Of a DNA stretch of 64,000 nucleotides, positions 28,431 to 35,566 are shown piece by piece. How positions within the stretch are numbered: the stretch's first letter is position 1; each line of letters begins with the position of its first letter. Made by a program: the position numbers and the translations under genes. The stretch comes from Methanobrevibacter sp. V74 (GTDB lineage Archaea; Methanobacteriota; Methanobacteria; Methanobacteriales; Methanobacteriaceae), in contig NZ_CAUJAN010000002.1 in the NCBI RefSeq assembly GCF_963082495.1, positions 248,001 through 312,000 on the forward strand, given 5' to 3'. The notes below the pieces were generated by a model that saw only the letters and a program-made list of their open reading frames with translations, ran no database searches and was not told where the DNA came from.

Positions 28431-29519
28431 TTACCTTCCTCTATTTAACAAGTAATTAACAATTCGCTCAGATGAATGGCCATCAATTTCATCAAATTGC
28501 ATCTTAACAAATTCTGATATTCTGCTTTTATCAAAATCACCATCTTTGATTACATCAATTAGTTCATCGGAAGTATGAACAATCGGTCCCGGAACAGTAG
28601 TTTCAAAATCATAGTAAAAACCGCGCTCATTGGCTAAATAATCATCTAGATCATAAGTGAAAAAGACAGTAGGCTTATCTAAAACCGAATACTCAATCAT
28701 TATAGAAGAATAATCAGTTATCAGAATGTCACTGATTAACATCAGCTCCTGCTCACTTTCATAATCGCTGACATCAATATACTGCCCATTAGCTGATATG
28801 TCCTTCCCATAGAAGTTTCTGATTTTAGGATGAAGTTTTAAAGCTAAAATATAATCATCCCCCAATTCCTGATTGAATTTCTCCAAATCAAGGTAAGTGA
28901 AGACATTGTTGTATTTGGCCTCTTCCCTAAAAGTCGGAGCATAGAGAATGATTTTCTTATCTGAAGACACATCATATTTACTGCAAAAATCCGATTTTAA
29001 TTGGTCTGCATCATGATTTTCAAAGTAATAGTCCATTCTTGGAAGGCCCAAAGGCTTGATTTTGGTCTTGGATATCTGAAATGCTTCACCGTAATATTCC
29101 ACAATATTTCGAGAAGTAACAATTAAATAATCAGTTTTTTCAGAAATTTTCCTTAAAATGCCTCTGCTTTTAATATCAACAGATCCTCCGAATTTTTTAG
29201 ATGCTCCCGGAGCATGCCACAATTGGACAATGATGTTTTTAGGTTTAAATTCCATAAAAGCCAATGCAAAGAAATTGTCATTTAAAAATATATATCTAGA
29301 ACCTGCTAACTTTTGTAAACTAGAATAGGATAACTTATCCTTATAAAAAAAGTGAAAATCATAATCGCCTTTTCTTTCAAACTCTCTTTTAATATATTCT
29401 AAGTTACCTTTAAAAGATTCGCGGGAATCCATAATAAATGAAATTCTGTTTGGCTCAACATAAGTATATCTAAATAATCTAAAGAGTAAACCATAGAGTC
29501 TATGTTTTAAATATGACAT
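28431..29519 (-). CDS. CDP-glycerol glycerophosphotransferase family protein
   Basis: This 362-residue protein belongs to the TagB/TagF family (PF04464), which transfers glycerol- or ribitol-phosphate from CDP-polyol to build teichoic acids in Gram-positive bacteria. Visible landmarks are QLWHAPGASKKFG, ILYAPTFREE, LALKLHPKIR and LITDYSSIMIEYSVLDKP, the last two holding the His and Ser/Thr residues of the active site. The basic amphipathic N-terminus would sit on the membrane. Archaeal members are known in Methanobrevibacter, but a product has not been inferred here. It is followed by the GT2 gene with a one-base gap. Confidence 0.88.
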   Translation of the reverse strand: MSYLKHRLYGLLFRLFRYTYVEPNRISFIMDSRESFKGNLEYIKREFERKGDYDFHFFYKDKLSYSSLQKLAGSRYIFLNDNFFALAFMEFKPKNIIVQLWHAPGASKKFGGSVDIKSRGILRKISEKTDYLIVTSRNIVEYYGEAFQISKTKIKPLGLPRMDYYFENHDADQLKSDFCSKYDVSSDKKIILYAPTFREEAKYNNVFTYLDLEKFNQELGDDYILALKLHPKIRNFYGKDISANGQYIDVSDYESEQELMLISDILITDYSSIMIEYSVLDKPTVFFTYDLDDYLANERGFYYDFETTVPGPIVHTSDELIDVIKDGDFDKSRISEFVKMQFDEIDGHSSERIVNYLLNRGR

Positions 29520-29525
29520 GATTAC

Positions 29526-29804
29526 CTAAAAAGCTGCTAACAGTTCAGGAAGAACTCCAAGCATCGCCTGAATACCTAAAATGAAAATTGCTAAACCACC
29601 AATAAAATTAATAAATCTAGCATATTTCATGGCTATTTTTGTACCAAAAGTTCCGATTAAAAGCCAGCAAATAACAGCTGCAATACTTAACAAGGACAAT
29701 CCAACTGGATCAACATGTGCTGAAACACCTTGAGCTGCTAAAATTAAGTTTTCAATATTGCCAAAAATTAATAAAGGAAGAAAATTCATTAATTCTGAAT
29801 CCAT
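29526..29804 (-). CDS. Small three-helix membrane protein, paralogue of the next gene
   Basis: This 92-residue protein has three hydrophobic helices (about 7-27, 33-53 and 68-88). It shares IFGNIENL, GTFGT and FIGGLAIFILG with the adjacent 88-residue protein. The fold of two 3-helix halves resembles the internally repeated LysE, MntP and Gdt1 transporter group, of which this would be one half; that link is inference. The loop between helices 2 and 3 is basic (TKIAMKYAR). The ATG at 29804 follows AGAGGTGAATAGT, which lies inside the end of the upstream gene, so translation is coupled. Confidence 0.75.
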   Translation of the reverse strand: MDSELMNFLPLLIFGNIENLILAAQGVSAHVDPVGLSLLSIAAVICWLLIGTFGTKIAMKYARFINFIGGLAIFILGIQAMLGVLPELLAAF

Positions 29805-29805
29805 A

Positions 29806-30072
29806 CTATTCACCTCTAATGGAAGCAATCATTGCTTGGGCTCCTAAAATAAAAATAGCCAATCCTCCAATGAACTCAATGAAATCAACATATTCAATTA
29901 AAAACTGTGTTCCAAAAGTTCCTATAACCAACCACAAAACAACCCAAAAAATACTCGCAATTCCTAATTTAACCGGATTAACACCAGCTACAACACCTTG
30001 AGATGATAAAACTAAGTTTTCAATGTTTCCAAATATTATTAATGCTACAAAAGGTAAATATTGTTCCAACAT
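29806..30072 (-). CDS. Small three-helix membrane protein, paralogue of the previous gene
   Basis: This 88-residue protein has the same three-helix plan (LPFVALIIFGNIENLVLSSQ, then WVVLWLVIGTFGT, then FIGGLAIFILGAQAM). The loop between helices 2 and 3 is acidic (QFLIEYVDFIE), opposite in charge to its paralogue. The start at 30072 follows GTGATTTGG; an earlier in-frame ATG at 30111 would add a hydrophobic extension without a ribosome-binding site. It is the first gene of the unit that runs into the glycan cluster. An exporter or lipid-linked substrate carrier is possible, but nothing in the sequence proves one. Confidence 0.75.
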   Translation of the reverse strand: MLEQYLPFVALIIFGNIENLVLSSQGVVAGVNPVKLGIASIFWVVLWLVIGTFGTQFLIEYVDFIEFIGGLAIFILGAQAMIASIRGE

Positions 30073-30130
30073 CCAAATCACTATTTCCCAAAAAATAAAT
30101 TTTAATTTCAAATTAATTATTAAACAATTA

Positions 30131-30286: not shown

Positions 30287-31294
30287 CTATCCACCCCCAT
30301 ACATCTTTTCATAATATTCCATATATTGACCACTTTTAACTTGAGCCGTCCAATCCTGATTATCCAAATACCACTGAATAGTTTCTTTAATACCTAATTC
30401 AAAAGAGTATTCCGGAACCCATCCCAATTCTTGCTGAATTTTACTTGAATCAATAGCGTATCGTCTATCATGGCCTAAACGATCACTAACAAATTCAATT
30501 AAAGATTCATCTTTACCTAAAGTTTCAAGAATTAATTTGACAATATAAATATTTTCTTTTTCATTGTTACCACCAACATTGTAAACTTCACCAAGTTTAC
30601 CATCATGTAAAACTAAATCAATAGCTGTACAGTGGTCATGGACATGTAACCAATCCCTAATGTTTTTTCCATCCCCATAAATAGGCAATTTCTCATCTTC
30701 AAGAGTATTTGAAATCATCAACGGAATTAATTTTTCAGGAAACTGATAAGGCCCGTAATTATTAGAACAGCGAGTAATATTAACAGGCAAGTCAAAAGTT
30801 TCAAAGTAAGCTCTTGTAATTAAATCCCCACCGGCTTTAGAAGCTGAATATGGGCTGTTCGGTTGTAAAGGAGTAGATTCTACAAAGTATCCTGTTTTTC
30901 CAAGCGTTCCATAAACTTCATCAGTGGATATTTGAATATATTTATCGACACCATGTTCTTTTGCTGCATTTAAAAGTACTTGTGTGCCTAATACGTTAGA
31001 TTTAATAAAGATTTCCGGATTATTTATACTTCTGTCAACATGACTTTCAGCTGCAAAATTAATAACATAATCAGATTTTTTAACCAACTCATCAACAATA
31101 GATTTATCTCCGATATCCCCCTTAACAAATGAGTAATTGTTCTTATTTTCAATATCTTTTAAGTTTTCAAGATTTCCACAATAAGTTAAAGCATCTAAAT
31201 TTATAATATGATAATCAGAGTATTTGTTAACCATATATCTTACAAAATTACTTCCGATAAATCCTGCTCCGCCGGTAACTAAAATATTTGTCAT
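30287..31294 (-). CDS. rfbB: dTDP-glucose 4,6-dehydratase
   Basis: RfbB/RmlB converts dTDP-glucose to dTDP-4-keto-6-deoxyglucose, the second step to dTDP-L-rhamnose. The 335 residues show the NAD-binding GGAGFIGSNFVRYM, the SAAESHVDRSI-like segment (FAAESHVDRSINNPE), the catalytic YSASKAGGDLI and the RCSNNYGPYQFPEKLIP signature. The ATG at 31294 follows a TGATTATC spacer; the upstream GTG is part of the ribosome-binding site. It is the last gene of the six-gene operon starting at 34258. Confidence 0.96.
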   Translation of the reverse strand: MTNILVTGGAGFIGSNFVRYMVNKYSDYHIINLDALTYCGNLENLKDIENKNNYSFVKGDIGDKSIVDELVKKSDYVINFAAESHVDRSINNPEIFIKSNVLGTQVLLNAAKEHGVDKYIQISTDEVYGTLGKTGYFVESTPLQPNSPYSASKAGGDLITRAYFETFDLPVNITRCSNNYGPYQFPEKLIPLMISNTLEDEKLPIYGDGKNIRDWLHVHDHCTAIDLVLHDGKLGEVYNVGGNNEKENIYIVKLILETLGKDESLIEFVSDRLGHDRRYAIDSSKIQQELGWVPEYSFELGIKETIQWYLDNQDWTAQVKSGQYMEYYEKMYGGG

Positions 31295-31302
31295 GATAAT
31301 CA

Positions 31303-31860
31303 CTAATATTTAATATTTACTTGTTTAAATGATTTTAATTTTTTATCTTTCTCGGATAAAATAATCTCATCAATTTCATCCAATGGCCAGTCAATAGCTA
31401 TATCTTCATCATTCCACATGATTCCACATTCATCTTCGCCATGATAGAATTCTGTACATTTATATAAAAATTCCGCCTCATCAGACAACACCAAAAATCC
31501 ATGTGCAAATTTCGGTGGAATGTAGAGCTGTTTTTTATTTTCATCAGATAGAATCTCGCCATGCCATTTGCCATAAGTTGAAGAGTCCCCCCTAAGGTCA
31601 ACGCCAACATCAAAGACCTTGCCCCTAATAACACGAACTAATTTGCCCTGAGGATATTTCAATTGCAAATGCAATCCTCTAAGCACTCCTTTTGATGATT
31701 TTGATTGGTTATCCTGAACAAAAGTTAAATCATAACCTGCCTTTTTAAAATCATTTTCATGATACGTTTCCATGAAGTATCCCCTATTGTCTTCAAAAAC
31801 CTTAGGCTCAACAACAAACATACCCTCTATATCAGTTTTCCTAAATTTAAATTTTCCCAT
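31303..31860 (-). CDS. rfbC: dTDP-4-dehydrorhamnose 3,5-epimerase
   Basis: RfbC/RmlC epimerises dTDP-4-keto-6-deoxyglucose at C3 and C5. The 185 residues are a usual length, with FRKTDIEGMFVVEPKVFEDN, RGLHLQLKYPQGKLVRVIRG (catalytic His in RGLHLQ), the VFDVGVDLR strand and FAHGFLVLSDEAEFLYKCTE. I set the start at 31860 because the longer frame reads back through the rfbA stop; only four bases separate the two genes. Confidence 0.95.
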   Translation of the reverse strand: MGKFKFRKTDIEGMFVVEPKVFEDNRGYFMETYHENDFKKAGYDLTFVQDNQSKSSKGVLRGLHLQLKYPQGKLVRVIRGKVFDVGVDLRGDSSTYGKWHGEILSDENKKQLYIPPKFAHGFLVLSDEAEFLYKCTEFYHGEDECGIMWNDEDIAIDWPLDEIDEIILSEKDKKLKSFKQVNIKY

Positions 31861-31864
31861 AATA

Positions 31865-32731
31865 TCATCTGTCAGCCAAATCAAATAAGTATTGCCCATA
31901 ATCTGTCTTTTTAAGCTCATTAGCTGTTTTTAATAGCTGCTTTTCATCAATATAACCCTTGAGGTATGCAATTTCTTCAAGACATGCAATATACAGACTT
32001 TGCCTTTTTTGAACAGTTTCAATGAAATTTGCCGCTTCAAGCAATCCTTCATGAGTTCCCGTATCCAGCCAAGCCATGCCCCGACCCAATAATTCCACTT
32101 TAAGCTTGCCACGTTTTAAATACTCTTCATTAACAGATGTAATTTCAACTTCACCCCTATCAGAAGGTTTAACATTTTTAGCTATATCAATAACATCATT
32201 ATCATAAAAATATAGTCCGGGCACTATGTAATTCGATTTCGGTTTTTCTGGTTTTTCTTCAATTGACAGCACATTCCACTCATCATCAAATTCAACGACA
32301 CCAAAAGCTTCTGGATTATTAGTATAATAACCAAATATTATTGCTCCTTCTCCAATATTGGTCGCCCTTTCAAGTATTTCAGTGAATCTATGGCCATGAA
32401 ATATATTATCTCCTAAAATAAGCGCAACATTGTCATCACCAATGAAGTCCTCACCAATAACGAATGCTTCGGCAAGCCCATTAGGGTTTTCTTGAACCGC
32501 ATACTCGAAGTTAATTCCAAGAGAAGATCCATCGCCCAACAAGTCCTTATACATTGGCAAGTCTCTAGGAGTTGAAATAATTAGAATATCTTTAATTCCT
32601 GAAAGCATTAAAACTGAAATTGGATAATAAATCATTGGTTTATCATATAGTGGCAATAATTGCTTAGAAACCGCTTTAGTAATAGGATATAATCGAGTTC
32701 CGGAGCCCCCTGCAAGTACAATTCCTTTCAT
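31865..32731 (-). CDS. rfbA: Glucose-1-phosphate thymidylyltransferase
   Basis: RfbA/RmlA makes dTDP-glucose from dTTP and glucose-1-phosphate, the first step to dTDP-L-rhamnose. The 288 residues start with [20 protein letters not shown], the nucleotide loop, and carry [22 protein letters not shown] and the [13 protein letters not shown] motif of the family. The ATG at 32731 follows GGTGATTATT, nine bases beyond the barstar stop. The family is allosterically inhibited by dTDP-rhamnose in bacteria; nothing here shows otherwise. Confidence 0.96.
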
Positions 32732-32740
32732 AATAATCAC

Positions 32741-32968
32741 CTATATTATTTTAAATTTTAAATAATCATTTTCACTAGCTGCATCTTCAAAAGTGTCTAA
32801 AATATCTTTATCAACTTCACTAGCATTAATTAATTCAATTTCACCATCTATCTCACATAAACAATCATATAAAGCATCTAAATTTTTACCATAATAATCT
32901 GGAAAATTTAGCGCTTCCATCAAGTAAACATGTCCCTGTCGATTAATTAGTTTGCCATCCAATTGCAT
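32741..32968 (-). CDS. Barstar-family ribonuclease inhibitor
   Basis: This 75-residue protein matches barstar, the tight protein inhibitor of barnase. It has the core helix FPDYYGKNLDALYDCL, with Tyr25, Asp31 and Asp35 at the positions of barstar Tyr29, Asp35 and Asp39, the residues that plug the RNase active site. Barstar Trp38 is Tyr here. It is slightly shorter than the 90-residue Bacillus protein and has no signal peptide, so it protects the cytoplasm. The ATG at 32968 lies one base after the barnase stop, with GAGGT in the barnase tail as ribosome-binding site. An in-frame TTG at 32983 is less likely. Confidence 0.9.
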   Translation of the reverse strand: MQLDGKLINRQGHVYLMEALNFPDYYGKNLDALYDCLCEIDGEIELINASEVDKDILDTFEDAASENDYLKFKII

Positions 32969-32969
32969 T

Positions 32970-33422
32970 TTAGACCTCTTCAAATGTATTATAATGGTTC
33001 TCAGTATAATAGACTTTATAATCTCCAGTATTATAAACTATTCTTTTAGCACCGCGAATGGTTCCATTGGCATCAATATCACATTCAATGTATTTAGAGT
33101 CGCTGTCTGGCAATACATGTTGTCTGTTGGTAAACGTGTCTCCACCTATGCTTTTTCCAGGCGCGTATTTTTTAAGCGGTCCACCATGCCAACCCAACTC
33201 CCTAGCTTCGCTTTTTGTAATGTAATTGCCAGGGAGCTTGTGAAACTCTTTAATGTATGATGAAACCTCATCAACTGTACAATATTCCCCACCTTCAACT
33301 ACGCTAACATCACCTGAATCATCACTTCCAAAGTTTAAAAAGTCAAAAAATCCTGCACTTACAGCTGAAATGGAAAATAAAGCAATTACCAATGCAATGA
33401 TTAAAACTAGTTTCTTATTCAT
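32970..33422 (-). CDS. Secreted barnase-family ribonuclease
   Basis: This 150-residue protein is a guanyl-preferring RNase of the barnase type with an N-terminal signal peptide (LVLIIALVIALFSISAVSAG). The mature part aligns closely with Bacillus barnase through HKLPGNYITKSEARELGW, APGKSIGGDTFTNR and ENHYNTF. All catalytic positions are kept: Lys70 (barnase Lys27), Glu113 (Glu73), Arg123 (Arg83), Arg127 (Arg87) and His143 (His102); Arg100 matches Arg59, the main barstar contact. Its ATG overlaps the rfbD stop by four bases (ATGA), and barstar follows one base after its stop. It probably acts outside the cell against neighbours; that is inference. Confidence 0.93.
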   Translation of the reverse strand: MNKKLVLIIALVIALFSISAVSAGFFDFLNFGSDDSGDVSVVEGGEYCTVDEVSSYIKEFHKLPGNYITKSEARELGWHGGPLKKYAPGKSIGGDTFTNRQHVLPDSDSKYIECDIDANGTIRGAKRIVYNTGDYKVYYTENHYNTFEEV

Positions 33423-34258
33423 TTAATCAACTCAATATATTCTTTTATAGCTTCTTTATAATCTCTTAAAGGTTCAAATCCCTTTTCTACCCAATTTCTA
33501 TTTTCTAAAACAGAATAACTTGGCCTTGGGGCTGGTCTTGCATACTCAGATGCAGTAACCGGAATAACATCAACATCAATTTCAGCTATTTCAAAGATAT
33601 ACCTTGCAAATTCACACCATGAACAGCTTCCAGAATTAGTTAAATGGTAAATACCATAATAACCAGTTTCGATTAATTGAGATATTGCTCTAGCCAAATC
33701 CAGAGCATAAGTTGGAGTTCCAACCTCATCATAAACAACCCAGATTTCAGAATGCTTTTTAGCTAACTCAAGGATTGTCTTTGGAAAATTCCTGCCGTTG
33801 ATTCCATAGAGCCATGCGGTTCTTAAAATAAAATATTTATCCAATATTTTTTGAATAGCTTCCTCCCCTTTGAGTTTGCTTTTTCCATAAACACTTAATG
33901 GACATATTTCATCGCATTCAACCCATGGACGGGTATTCTTACCATTGAAAATATAATCAGTACTAATATGAACTAAAGCACAGTCAATTTTTCGGCAAGC
34001 AAGAGCTAAATTTTTAACTCCATCGCTATTTACACTATATGCAAGCTCTCGGTTTTCCTCACAACCATCAACATTTGTATAAGCAGCTGAATTAATAACA
34101 ATATCCGGATTATTTTCACAAATAGCATCCATGACTTGTTTTTCATCAGTGATGTCTAATGTTTTTGATGTTGTAAGAATTAATTCATGACTATCACCTA
34201 AAACTTCAGCCAAATCATGCCCCAACATTCCATTAGAACCCGTAATTAAAATTTTCAT
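33419..34258 (-). CDS. rfbD: dTDP-4-dehydrorhamnose reductase
   Basis: RfbD/RmlD reduces dTDP-4-keto-L-rhamnose to dTDP-L-rhamnose with NAD(P)H. The 279 residues begin at MKILITGSNGMLGHDLAEVL, which gives the usual N-terminal nucleotide loop and fixes the start at 34258 (TAAGTGATACA upstream); a 32-residue extension to 34354 would read through the promoter. The catalytic YGKSKLKGEEA and HISTDYIFNG are present. It leads the operon rfbD, barnase, barstar, rfbA, rfbC, rfbB, all with gaps of nine bases or less or small overlaps. Confidence 0.95.
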   Translation of the reverse strand: MKILITGSNGMLGHDLAEVLGDSHELILTTSKTLDITDEKQVMDAICENNPDIVINSAAYTNVDGCEENRELAYSVNSDGVKNLALACRKIDCALVHISTDYIFNGKNTRPWVECDEICPLSVYGKSKLKGEEAIQKILDKYFILRTAWLYGINGRNFPKTILELAKKHSEIWVVYDEVGTPTYALDLARAISQLIETGYYGIYHLTNSGSCSWCEFARYIFEIAEIDVDVIPVTASEYARPAPRPSYSVLENRNWVEKGFEPLRDYKEAIKEYIELIK

Positions 34259-34330: not shown

Positions 34331-35566
34331 ATGAAAATATGTATTGTTGGCCAAGGCTATATCGGACTTCCAACAGCGGCATTATTCAGCCGTAACCATT
34401 GTGAAGTCCTTGGGGTTGATGTTAATGAAAAAATTATTGAAAACTTGAATAAAGGAATAATTCATATAGAAGAACCGGGAATAGCCGACATTATCAAAAA
34501 AGCAGTTGAGAGAAAAATATATGCTGCCAGTTTAACTCCTCAAAAAGCGGATGCATTTATCATAACTGTTCCAACACCATACATTGCTGAAAATTACAGC
34601 TGCGATTTAAGTTATGTTATTAATGCATGCGAATCTATTTTACCTTATCTTGAACAGGGAAATACTGTTATTATCGAATCTACAATTGCTCCGATGTCAA
34701 CAGATGAAACCATTAAACCAATATTTGAAAAGGCCGGATTTACAATAGGCAAAGACCTGTATTTGGCACATTGTCCTGAAAGAGTGCTTCCCGGCAAAAT
34801 AATTGATGAACTGATCCACAATGACAGGATTATTGGTGGAGTAACTCCTGAATGCGCCATTAAAGCTAGTGAAGTTTATGGCAAGTTTGTTGAAGGAGAG
34901 TTAATGCTTACAGAAGCAAAAACTGCTGAATTATCAAAATGTATGGAAAACACTTTTCGTGATGTGAACATTGCACTTGCAAATGAATTAACTAAAATTT
35001 GTGCTGAAATTGGTGTTAATACACTTGACGTTATTGAAATGGCCAACAAACATCCAAGAGTAAACCTGCACTCACCAGGTCCCGGTGTTGGAGGACATTG
35101 CCTTGCAATTGATCCTTACTTTATTTATGCAAAAGCCCCAAAAACCGCTAAAATTATCAAATTGGCACGCGACACCAATAAATCCATGCCCACATTCGTA
35201 TGTGACAATGTTAGGAAAATTATTTCAGAAGGCAAAATAGCTGTTCTGGGTGTTTCTTATAAGGGAAATACTGGAGATGACAGGGAAAGCCCGGCTTATG
35301 AAATAATTGCTGATTTAAGTAAAGATTATGAAATAGCCATTCATGACCCACATATTGGAAATCCTAATTTTCAAAATCTAAAGGAGGCTACAAAAGATGC
35401 TGATTTGATTTTGATTTTATGTGATCATGATGAGTTTAAAAACCTCGATTATGGTTTAATTTCAAAAAACATGTCTGAAACAATAATATTCGATACTAAA
35501 AATATAATTAAAGAAGTTCCGGATGAAATTAAATTATTTAATTATGGAAACTTATATGAAATTTAA
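34331..35566 (+). CDS. wecC: UDP-N-acetylmannosamine dehydrogenase type nucleotide-sugar dehydrogenase
   Basis: This 411-residue enzyme oxidises C6 of a UDP-HexNAc to the uronic acid with two NAD. It shows the N-terminal MKICIVGQGYIGLPTAALFS, the VPTPYI segment, the ESTIAP and CPERVLPGK signatures, the catalytic Cys in GPGVGGHCLAIDPYF, and the C-terminal LGVSYKGNTGDDRESPA. The sequence fits the UDP-ManNAc group better than UDP-glucose dehydrogenase. Methanobacteriales pseudomurein contains a talosaminuronic acid, so this family could feed either wall or capsule; I cannot decide. AGGGGAG precedes the start. Confidence 0.88.
   Translation: MKICIVGQGYIGLPTAALFSRNHCEVLGVDVNEKIIENLNKGIIHIEEPGIADIIKKAVERKIYAASLTPQKADAFIITVPTPYIAENYSCDLSYVINACESILPYLEQGNTVIIESTIAPMSTDETIKPIFEKAGFTIGKDLYLAHCPERVLPGKIIDELIHNDRIIGGVTPECAIKASEVYGKFVEGELMLTEAKTAELSKCMENTFRDVNIALANELTKICAEIGVNTLDVIEMANKHPRVNLHSPGPGVGGHCLAIDPYFIYAKAPKTAKIIKLARDTNKSMPTFVCDNVRKIISEGKIAVLGVSYKGNTGDDRESPAYEIIADLSKDYEIAIHDPHIGNPNFQNLKEATKDADLILILCDHDEFKNLDYGLISKNMSETIIFDTKNIIKEVPDEIKLFNYGNLYEI

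Follow-up and report, generated by a model that had tools for sequence, protein, structure and literature searches.

A barnase-barstar pair carried between dTDP-rhamnose genes by most genomes of a methanogen genus

The barnase and barstar of Bacillus amyloliquefaciens (families PF00545 and PF01337) are a textbook protein pair: barnase is a secreted RNase, and barstar is a cytosolic protein that plugs the active site of the enzyme very tightly. The reason that organisms carry the pair is poorly settled. Simple barnase-barstar-like systems of a few methanoarchaea were in print in 2012 (PMC3482391), and a Methanosphaera barnase has been named among laterally transferred genes (PMC3445992); as the relevant passages of these two papers present them, the methanogen systems are of the same kind as the pair that we analyzed here, which lies in a window of 64,000 nucleotides from Methanobrevibacter sp. 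V74. Two genes of this window had initially been annotated as a complete barnase-barstar pair, an identity that our sequence comparisons confirm. The pair stands within a run of six minus-strand genes arranged head to tail in the order rmlD-barnase-barstar-rmlA-rmlC-rmlB:

34331..35566, plus strand: UDP-sugar dehydrogenase gene (PF03721/PF00984/PF03720), divergent, the usual upstream neighbour
33419..34258, minus strand: rmlD, dTDP-4-dehydrorhamnose reductase (PF04321, 329.7 bits), first gene of the operon, start chosen by eye
32970..33422, minus strand: barnase-type RNase gene, 150 residues, ATG at 33420-33422, named from PF00545, the PDB barnase match and the catalytic residues
33354..33422, minus strand: putative Sec signal peptide, residues 1-23 of the RNase, ending SAVSA, read by eye
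32741..32968, minus strand: barstar-type inhibitor gene, 75 residues, named from PF01337, the family profile against PDB barstar and the spacing
31865..32731, minus strand: rmlA, glucose-1-phosphate thymidylyltransferase type (PF00483, 256.5 bits)
31303..31860, minus strand: rmlC, dTDP-4-dehydrorhamnose 3,5-epimerase (PF00908, 244.4 bits), start chosen by eye
30287..31294, minus strand: rmlB, dTDP-glucose 4,6-dehydratase type (PF16363/PF01370), start chosen by eye

The 150-residue protein had been described as a barnase over the whole mature domain, and in accordance with this PF00545 matches it at 59.8 bits (cut-off 24) over profile positions 5-97 of 98, residues 49-149 match PDB barnase with an E-value of 2e-24, and 49 of 105 aligned residues are identical to those of Bacillus barnase. 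Like the Bacillus enzyme, it consists of a signal peptide and an RNase domain, with no second domain above the cut-off in a Pfam scan, and the five catalytic residues and Arg59 that had been reported as kept were all found in the alignment, where barnase Lys27, Glu73, Arg83, Arg87, His102 and Arg59 correspond to K70, E113, R123, R127, H143 and R100. All 39 own-genus rows, all 20 rows from other archaeal genera and all 112 bacterial rows have the five catalytic residues, counts in which the outlying locus L071 (which also has all five) is set apart, the broken L093 is omitted and one bacterial gene is entered twice (L195 is identical to L248). Arg59 is kept in 39/39 own-genus and 19/20 other archaeal rows but in just 38 of the 112 bacterial rows.

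Position 60 likewise differs between most archaeal rows and the bacterial ones. Glu60 of barnase contacts guanine, and the equivalent position of the window protein is Gln101; of the 39 own-genus rows 33 have Gln here and 6 have Glu, and Gln is also found in 19 of the 20 rows from other archaeal genera, whereas all 112 bacterial rows have Glu or Asp. The base specificity of the Gln60 enzyme may differ from that of barnase, and because Gln replaces Glu60 we do not claim guanine specificity for it. Cys5 and Cys74 (barnase numbering) co-occur in every own-genus row (39/39) and could form a disulfide; Cys50 and Cys74 are found instead in 8/8 rows of the M. ruminantium-like genus, as well as in 11 of the 112 bacterial rows. 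(Here and throughout, M. ruminantium-like and Methanosphaera-like are genus labels that we have assumed.) The N-terminus of the window protein, MNKK followed by a hydrophobic core and by SAVSA directly before a Gly, fits a Sec-type signal peptide when read by eye, as had been proposed. By the same reading the own-genus barnases are signal-peptide-like, the M. ruminantium-like ones carry a lipobox (..SGCIG) and the Methanosphaera-like ones a hydrophobic helix, with L120 ambiguous.

The neighbouring gene encodes 75 residues from its ATG, or 80 if an upstream TTG is the start. PF01337 matches it at 45.8 bits (cut-off 23.4), covering residues 18-49 of the 80-residue reading only, and the window protein alone matches PDB barstar with an E-value of 1.4e-4 across 26 residues, whereas a profile built from 44 barstars, with the window protein first, covers almost the whole of PDB barstar (E-value 3e-22, chain residues 1-89). 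As in the Bacillus inhibitor, and as first noted, the residues that plug the active site are present: Tyr29, Asp35 and Asp39 align with Y25, D31 and D35, and all three are kept in 38 of 38 barstar rows counted, a set that leaves out L084 (missed by the motif filter, with His at the Tyr29 position), L068 (which ends at a contig edge) and L071 (set apart). Unlike the B. amyloliquefaciens pair, in addition to Gln60 in the enzyme, the window barstar has Tyr for Trp38 and Asp for Glu76, and the alignment shows it to be short by about 9-10 residues in the region of helix 3. The changes at Glu60 and Trp38 and the missing helix 3 region were points absent from the initial annotation. The barstar positions that we take to form the barnase-binding face are better conserved in the genus than the remainder of the protein (mean majority 0.893 vs 0.714). 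An exported RNase with a cytosolic inhibitor, the arrangement originally suggested, is supported at the level of sequence.

The two genes are 1 nt apart, measured from the barnase stop to the barstar start, and lie inside the rml operon. rmlD runs from an ATG at 34256-34258 to a TGA at 33419-33421, and the barnase ATG overlaps this stop by 4 nt (ATGA); at the other end, 9 nt separate the barstar stop from the rmlA ATG. Across 41 loci the rmlD-barnase spacing is -4 in 30, -8 in 1 and between +1 and +9 in 9, and is not applicable in L071; 29 of the 30 four-nucleotide overlaps read ATGA, and that of L091 reads GTGA by its chosen start. We read the neighbourhoods of all 56 own-genus barnase carriers, and rmlD lies directly upstream of barnase in 55 of them, the window included, the exception being L071. 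In 49 of the 56 carriers rmlA follows further downstream in the same orientation, and in 37 it lies no more than 600 nt from the end of barnase; the seven carriers where it is not visible are L071 and six whose stretches break off 0.04 to 4 kb downstream. Eight loci (L069, L073, L078, L079, L088, L091, L096 and L100) have a polysaccharide ABC exporter-like gene pair (clusters c18 and c19, named by eye from their sequences) directly after barstar; rmlA lies beyond this pair in six of them, and the stretches of the other two end before it. The cluster of the divergent UDP-sugar dehydrogenase, c4, has 39 members across 41 own-genus loci. A scan for bacterial-type promoters and terminators, to which archaeal promoters are out of reach, stayed at chance level (28 vs 30.3 expected and 2 vs 3.0). 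Gene order and spacing suggest that the six genes are co-transcribed, and the order and overlap imply that RNase output would follow surface-sugar output.

Two further minus-strand features of the window lie in the same surroundings. A pair of hydrophobic proteins of ~100 residues (29526-30111), which by eye resemble a tandem duplicate, has no Pfam match, and a CDP-glycerol:poly(glycerophosphate) glycerophosphotransferase-type protein (28431-29519, PF04464) belongs to the archaeal surface-sugar cluster, which suggests a teichoic-acid-like polymer.

Membership of the rml operon, carriage by most of the genus and purifying selection are aspects of the pair that the initial annotation had missed. 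Of the 67 genomes examined in the genus, 56 have a PF00545 gene, always as a single copy and in one case broken (G040). At the order level it occurs in 89 of 150 genomes and 5 of 19 genera, all from one family, and at the phylum level in 88 of 143 genomes and 5 of 20 genera. The search that had been proposed for adjacent archaeal pairs, with PF00545 and PF01337, found the two genes together: among 81 relatives, barstar lies beside barnase in 40 of the 41 barnase-bearing genomes and occurs in 0 of the 40 others. In G008, where barnase has no barstar match, barnase sits at the contig end. In G040 (locus L093) a stop interrupts the barnase frame and barstar is still open, which reflects either an enzyme that is decaying first or a sequencing error.

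Selection was compared as Nei-Gojobori dN/dS, with L071 and L093 (the broken barnase) left out. At 0.1<dS<1.2, the only range from which pairs were taken, most comparisons being near saturation, median dN/dS is 0.069 for mature barnase (44 pairs), in the same range as rmlA (0.051, 80 pairs), rmlC (0.093, 25 pairs) and rmlD (0.118, 81 pairs), and higher for the barnase N-terminus (0.307, 181 pairs) and for barstar (0.331, 53 pairs). Mature barnase is under strong purifying selection, about as strict as that on the sugar enzymes. Mirror correlations of evolutionary distance with barnase are 0.78 for barstar, 0.63 for rmlC, 0.55 for rmlD and 0.24 for rmlA, and such mixed values alone do not prove co-inheritance with the whole operon.

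Eleven of the 67 own-genus genomes lack the pair. A close rmlA is present in nine of the eleven, and two, G017 and G032 (84 and 94 percent complete), have neither the pair nor a close rmlA. In seven of the nine pair-less rmlA loci rmlD lies upstream, with rmlD-rmlA gaps of 62, 163, 115, 45, -1, -1 and -1 nt. What remains in the 163-nt gap (L123, genome G004) is the beginning of the barnase frame with some of the signal-peptide region, and the final codons of barstar. When each of the two parts of this scar was compared with 1000 shuffles, no shuffle matched the pair region of L070 as well; the pair was therefore once present in G004 and was then lost. Mapped on a quick tree built from rmlA, rmlD and rmlC, presence and absence of the pair require 4 changes. 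In the remaining two loci, L124 (G034) and L125 (G011), no rmlD precedes rmlA, and the open reading frame in its place carries, in L125 at any rate, bacterial Ig-like domains.

Contamination or binning error is ruled out, since 55 of 56 genomes have the same archaeal gene, rmlD, beside the pair, and recent mobile insertion in the genus is ruled out, L071 excepted, by the fixed site, the purifying selection and the deletion scar of one lineage. Searches of mobile elements returned no match for the pair among phage records, 4 pattern matches but 0 relatives among viral contigs, and 5 records in a plasmid collection, of which two come from one species and three are chromosome-sized.

The pair had also been proposed to derive from Firmicutes by gene transfer, to be judged by a tree that includes Firmicutes sequences. 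In a 75-row tree (35 archaeal and 40 bacterial rows), the bootstrap of which had not settled, the barnases of archaea group in a single clade (ultrafast bootstrap 100, SH-aLRT 98) among Clostridia-type rows, not beside Bacillus barnase, which supports the proposal, with Clostridia as the relevant Firmicutes. A 94-row quick tree, flagged for long branches, recovers the same archaeal clade (SH-aLRT 96). Both trees use 110 columns; the 94-row tree comprises 93 of 173 extracted domains and one typed Bacillus row, and the 75-row tree 75 of the 173. Rooting on seven Bacilli- and Clostridium-type rows places the archaea inside the remaining bacterial rows, and the nearest of these, L237 and L238, are from genomes of the class of a Lachnospiraceae genome. 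A barstar-like gene follows barnase in 64 of 80 bacterial loci (the best 80 of 562 confirmed stretches, all titled as bacteria, in a scan led by a bacterial sequence), in 25 of 30 further bacterial loci and in 19 of 20 archaeal loci of other genera; since this holds across bacteria and archaea, the two genes probably moved as a pair.

Within the archaeal clade, all own-genus rows except L071 nest among the Methanosphaera-like rows (95/85), which hints at archaeon-to-archaeon transfer, although a clade uniting the own genus with the M. ruminantium-like genus, as vertical descent from an ancestor common to both would give, is neither demonstrated nor rejected (AU p 0.068); for all own rows including L071 as one clade, the AU p is 0.082. 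L071 (G012) is the sole own-genus barnase outside the rml operon, is divergent, has no Cys5 and groups with G105 (93/81), and probably represents a separate acquisition or a misplaced contig. The barnase of G105 itself (L121, from another archaeal genus) has no barstar-like gene within 700 nt downstream. Of the 8 loci in the M. ruminantium-like genus, 7 have threonyl-tRNA synthetase downstream of the pair and 7 have a glycosyltransferase-like gene next to it, and in Methanosphaera-like genomes its neighbours vary.

The explanation that best fits these observations, and that we regard as probable, is a working exported module of Clostridial derivation that is tied to the dTDP-rhamnose operon. 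The archaeon would make an RNase with a signal peptide and export it, and cytosolic barstar would plug the active site of any RNase that folds before export. The module would have entered the family of gut methanogens from Clostridia-like bacteria, probably once, and would have settled between rmlD and rmlA in this genus. Because of the operon position and the 4-nt overlap, RNase production would be tied to the synthesis of dTDP-rhamnose for surface polysaccharide, and outside the cell the RNase would most likely act on other cells or on cell-surface RNA. Several observations pull against this explanation. Since the pairs of the M. ruminantium-like and Methanosphaera-like genomes lie elsewhere, the rhamnose link is dispensable for function; the 11 of 67 genomes without the pair manage without it, 9 of them with a close rmlA; Gln60, the Tyr in place of barstar Trp38, the missing helix 3 region and the faster evolution of barstar depart from a standard pair; and the distance correlation between barnase and rmlA is weak.

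What the exported enzyme would do, for which a weapon against neighbouring microbes, a defence or a nutrient role had initially been suggested, can be read in more than one way, and with low certainty we slightly favour competition or protection over feeding. A secreted effector that kills competitors after entering their cells, with barstar protecting the producer, is a real possibility that falls short of an even chance. In a passage of PMC3482391, simple barnase-barstar pairs are treated as an incipient toxin-immunity gene order, and the genes here are kept and lost together, with no barstar among the 81 genomes that lacks a barnase gene, intact or broken. The protein nevertheless consists of a signal peptide and an RNase domain with no other Pfam domain above cut-off, occurs in single copy and evolves slowly, and the conserved barstar face argues against kin discrimination, as members of the genus could probably cross-neutralise one another.

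A feeding or clean-up RNase, which would break down nearby RNA to gain phosphate or nucleosides, or remove RNA from the surface matrix with barstar as a guard during export, is a tentative alternative. Bacillar extracellular RNases are commonly read in this way, and a housekeeping role would suit an enzyme that evolves slowly and keeps its place in a biosynthetic operon, but no nucleotidase or nucleoside-transport family was found among the ten window neighbours scanned. That the pair is instead a passenger in a well-expressed operon, unconnected to rhamnose and slowly being lost, would account for the pair-less genomes (11 of 67), the scar in G004 and the broken barnase beside an open barstar in G040; strong purifying selection, invariant catalytic residues and a position kept in 55 of 56 genomes make this unlikely. 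Very improbable is an intracellular toxin-antitoxin or abortive-infection system in which infection frees barnase from barstar, for which the adjacent and almost gapless RNase and inhibitor genes speak, but against which stand the signal-peptide-like, lipobox or hydrophobic-helix N-termini of the archaeal barnases (by eye, and where a type II toxin would have no export signal, the N-terminus is signal-peptide-like), the surface-sugar gene neighbours, and PADLOC, in which no defence model matches the pair or its eight neighbours (ten proteins).

The exported, operon-tied module could be carried further, to an inter-domain acquired RNase toxin that was domesticated as a surface or extracellular RNase in the surface-rhamnose operon of the genus, is translationally slaved to RmlD and, because the base-recognition residue has changed from Glu60 to Gln, possibly has a new RNA specificity and a role towards the envelope or bacterial neighbours; taken as a whole we consider this extended version doubtful. 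The pair itself is real, well conserved and functionally plausible, and its operon-embedded, genus-wide state and Gln60 are worth testing. A genus-wide pair under purifying selection in a dTDP-rhamnose operon offers a direct handle on the role of barnase-barstar, aided by cultivated members among these archaea, by close relatives without the pair and by one deletion scar. The pair also looks like a clean example of toxin-immunity genes that passed from bacterium to archaeon and later became ordinary equipment.

Among known systems, the pairs of Lachnospiraceae and other Clostridia are the nearest relatives of the archaeal pair in our trees. They make up most of the bacterial relatives (in the best 80 of 562 confirmed stretches), many are from gut samples by title, and most have a barstar-like gene downstream. 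Several of these barnases have longer N-terminal parts than the window protein, and their position 60 and Arg59 set them apart from the archaeal enzymes as given above. Anywhere within the fetched stretches, Rml genes are found in only 1 of 110 Lachnospiraceae/Clostridia loci and in 2 of 132 non-own loci in total, kilobases away; 30 of these stretches are just ~2-3 kb long. In two loci of the Clostridia class (L239 and L240), the barnase domain lies by eye C-terminal to an alpha/beta hydrolase-like part and is followed by barstar. Polymorphic toxins with C-terminal barnase domains have the catalytic fold family in common with the window barnase; unlike them, the window protein has 150 residues, one Pfam domain and no delivery or repeat domains. 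One locus with the polymorphic-toxin arrangement, L154 of Proteus mirabilis, has its barnase domain at the C-terminal end of an RHS-like frame (by eye).

On the methanogen systems already in print, the relevant passages of PMC3482391 and PMC3445992 say nothing about operon position, spread across a genus, selection or individual residues. By title and the start of the abstract, nothing among the open-licence papers listed placed an archaeal barnase in an rml operon. Barnase-barstar in methanogens is therefore known in kind, and what is new here is its link to dTDP-rhamnose synthesis.
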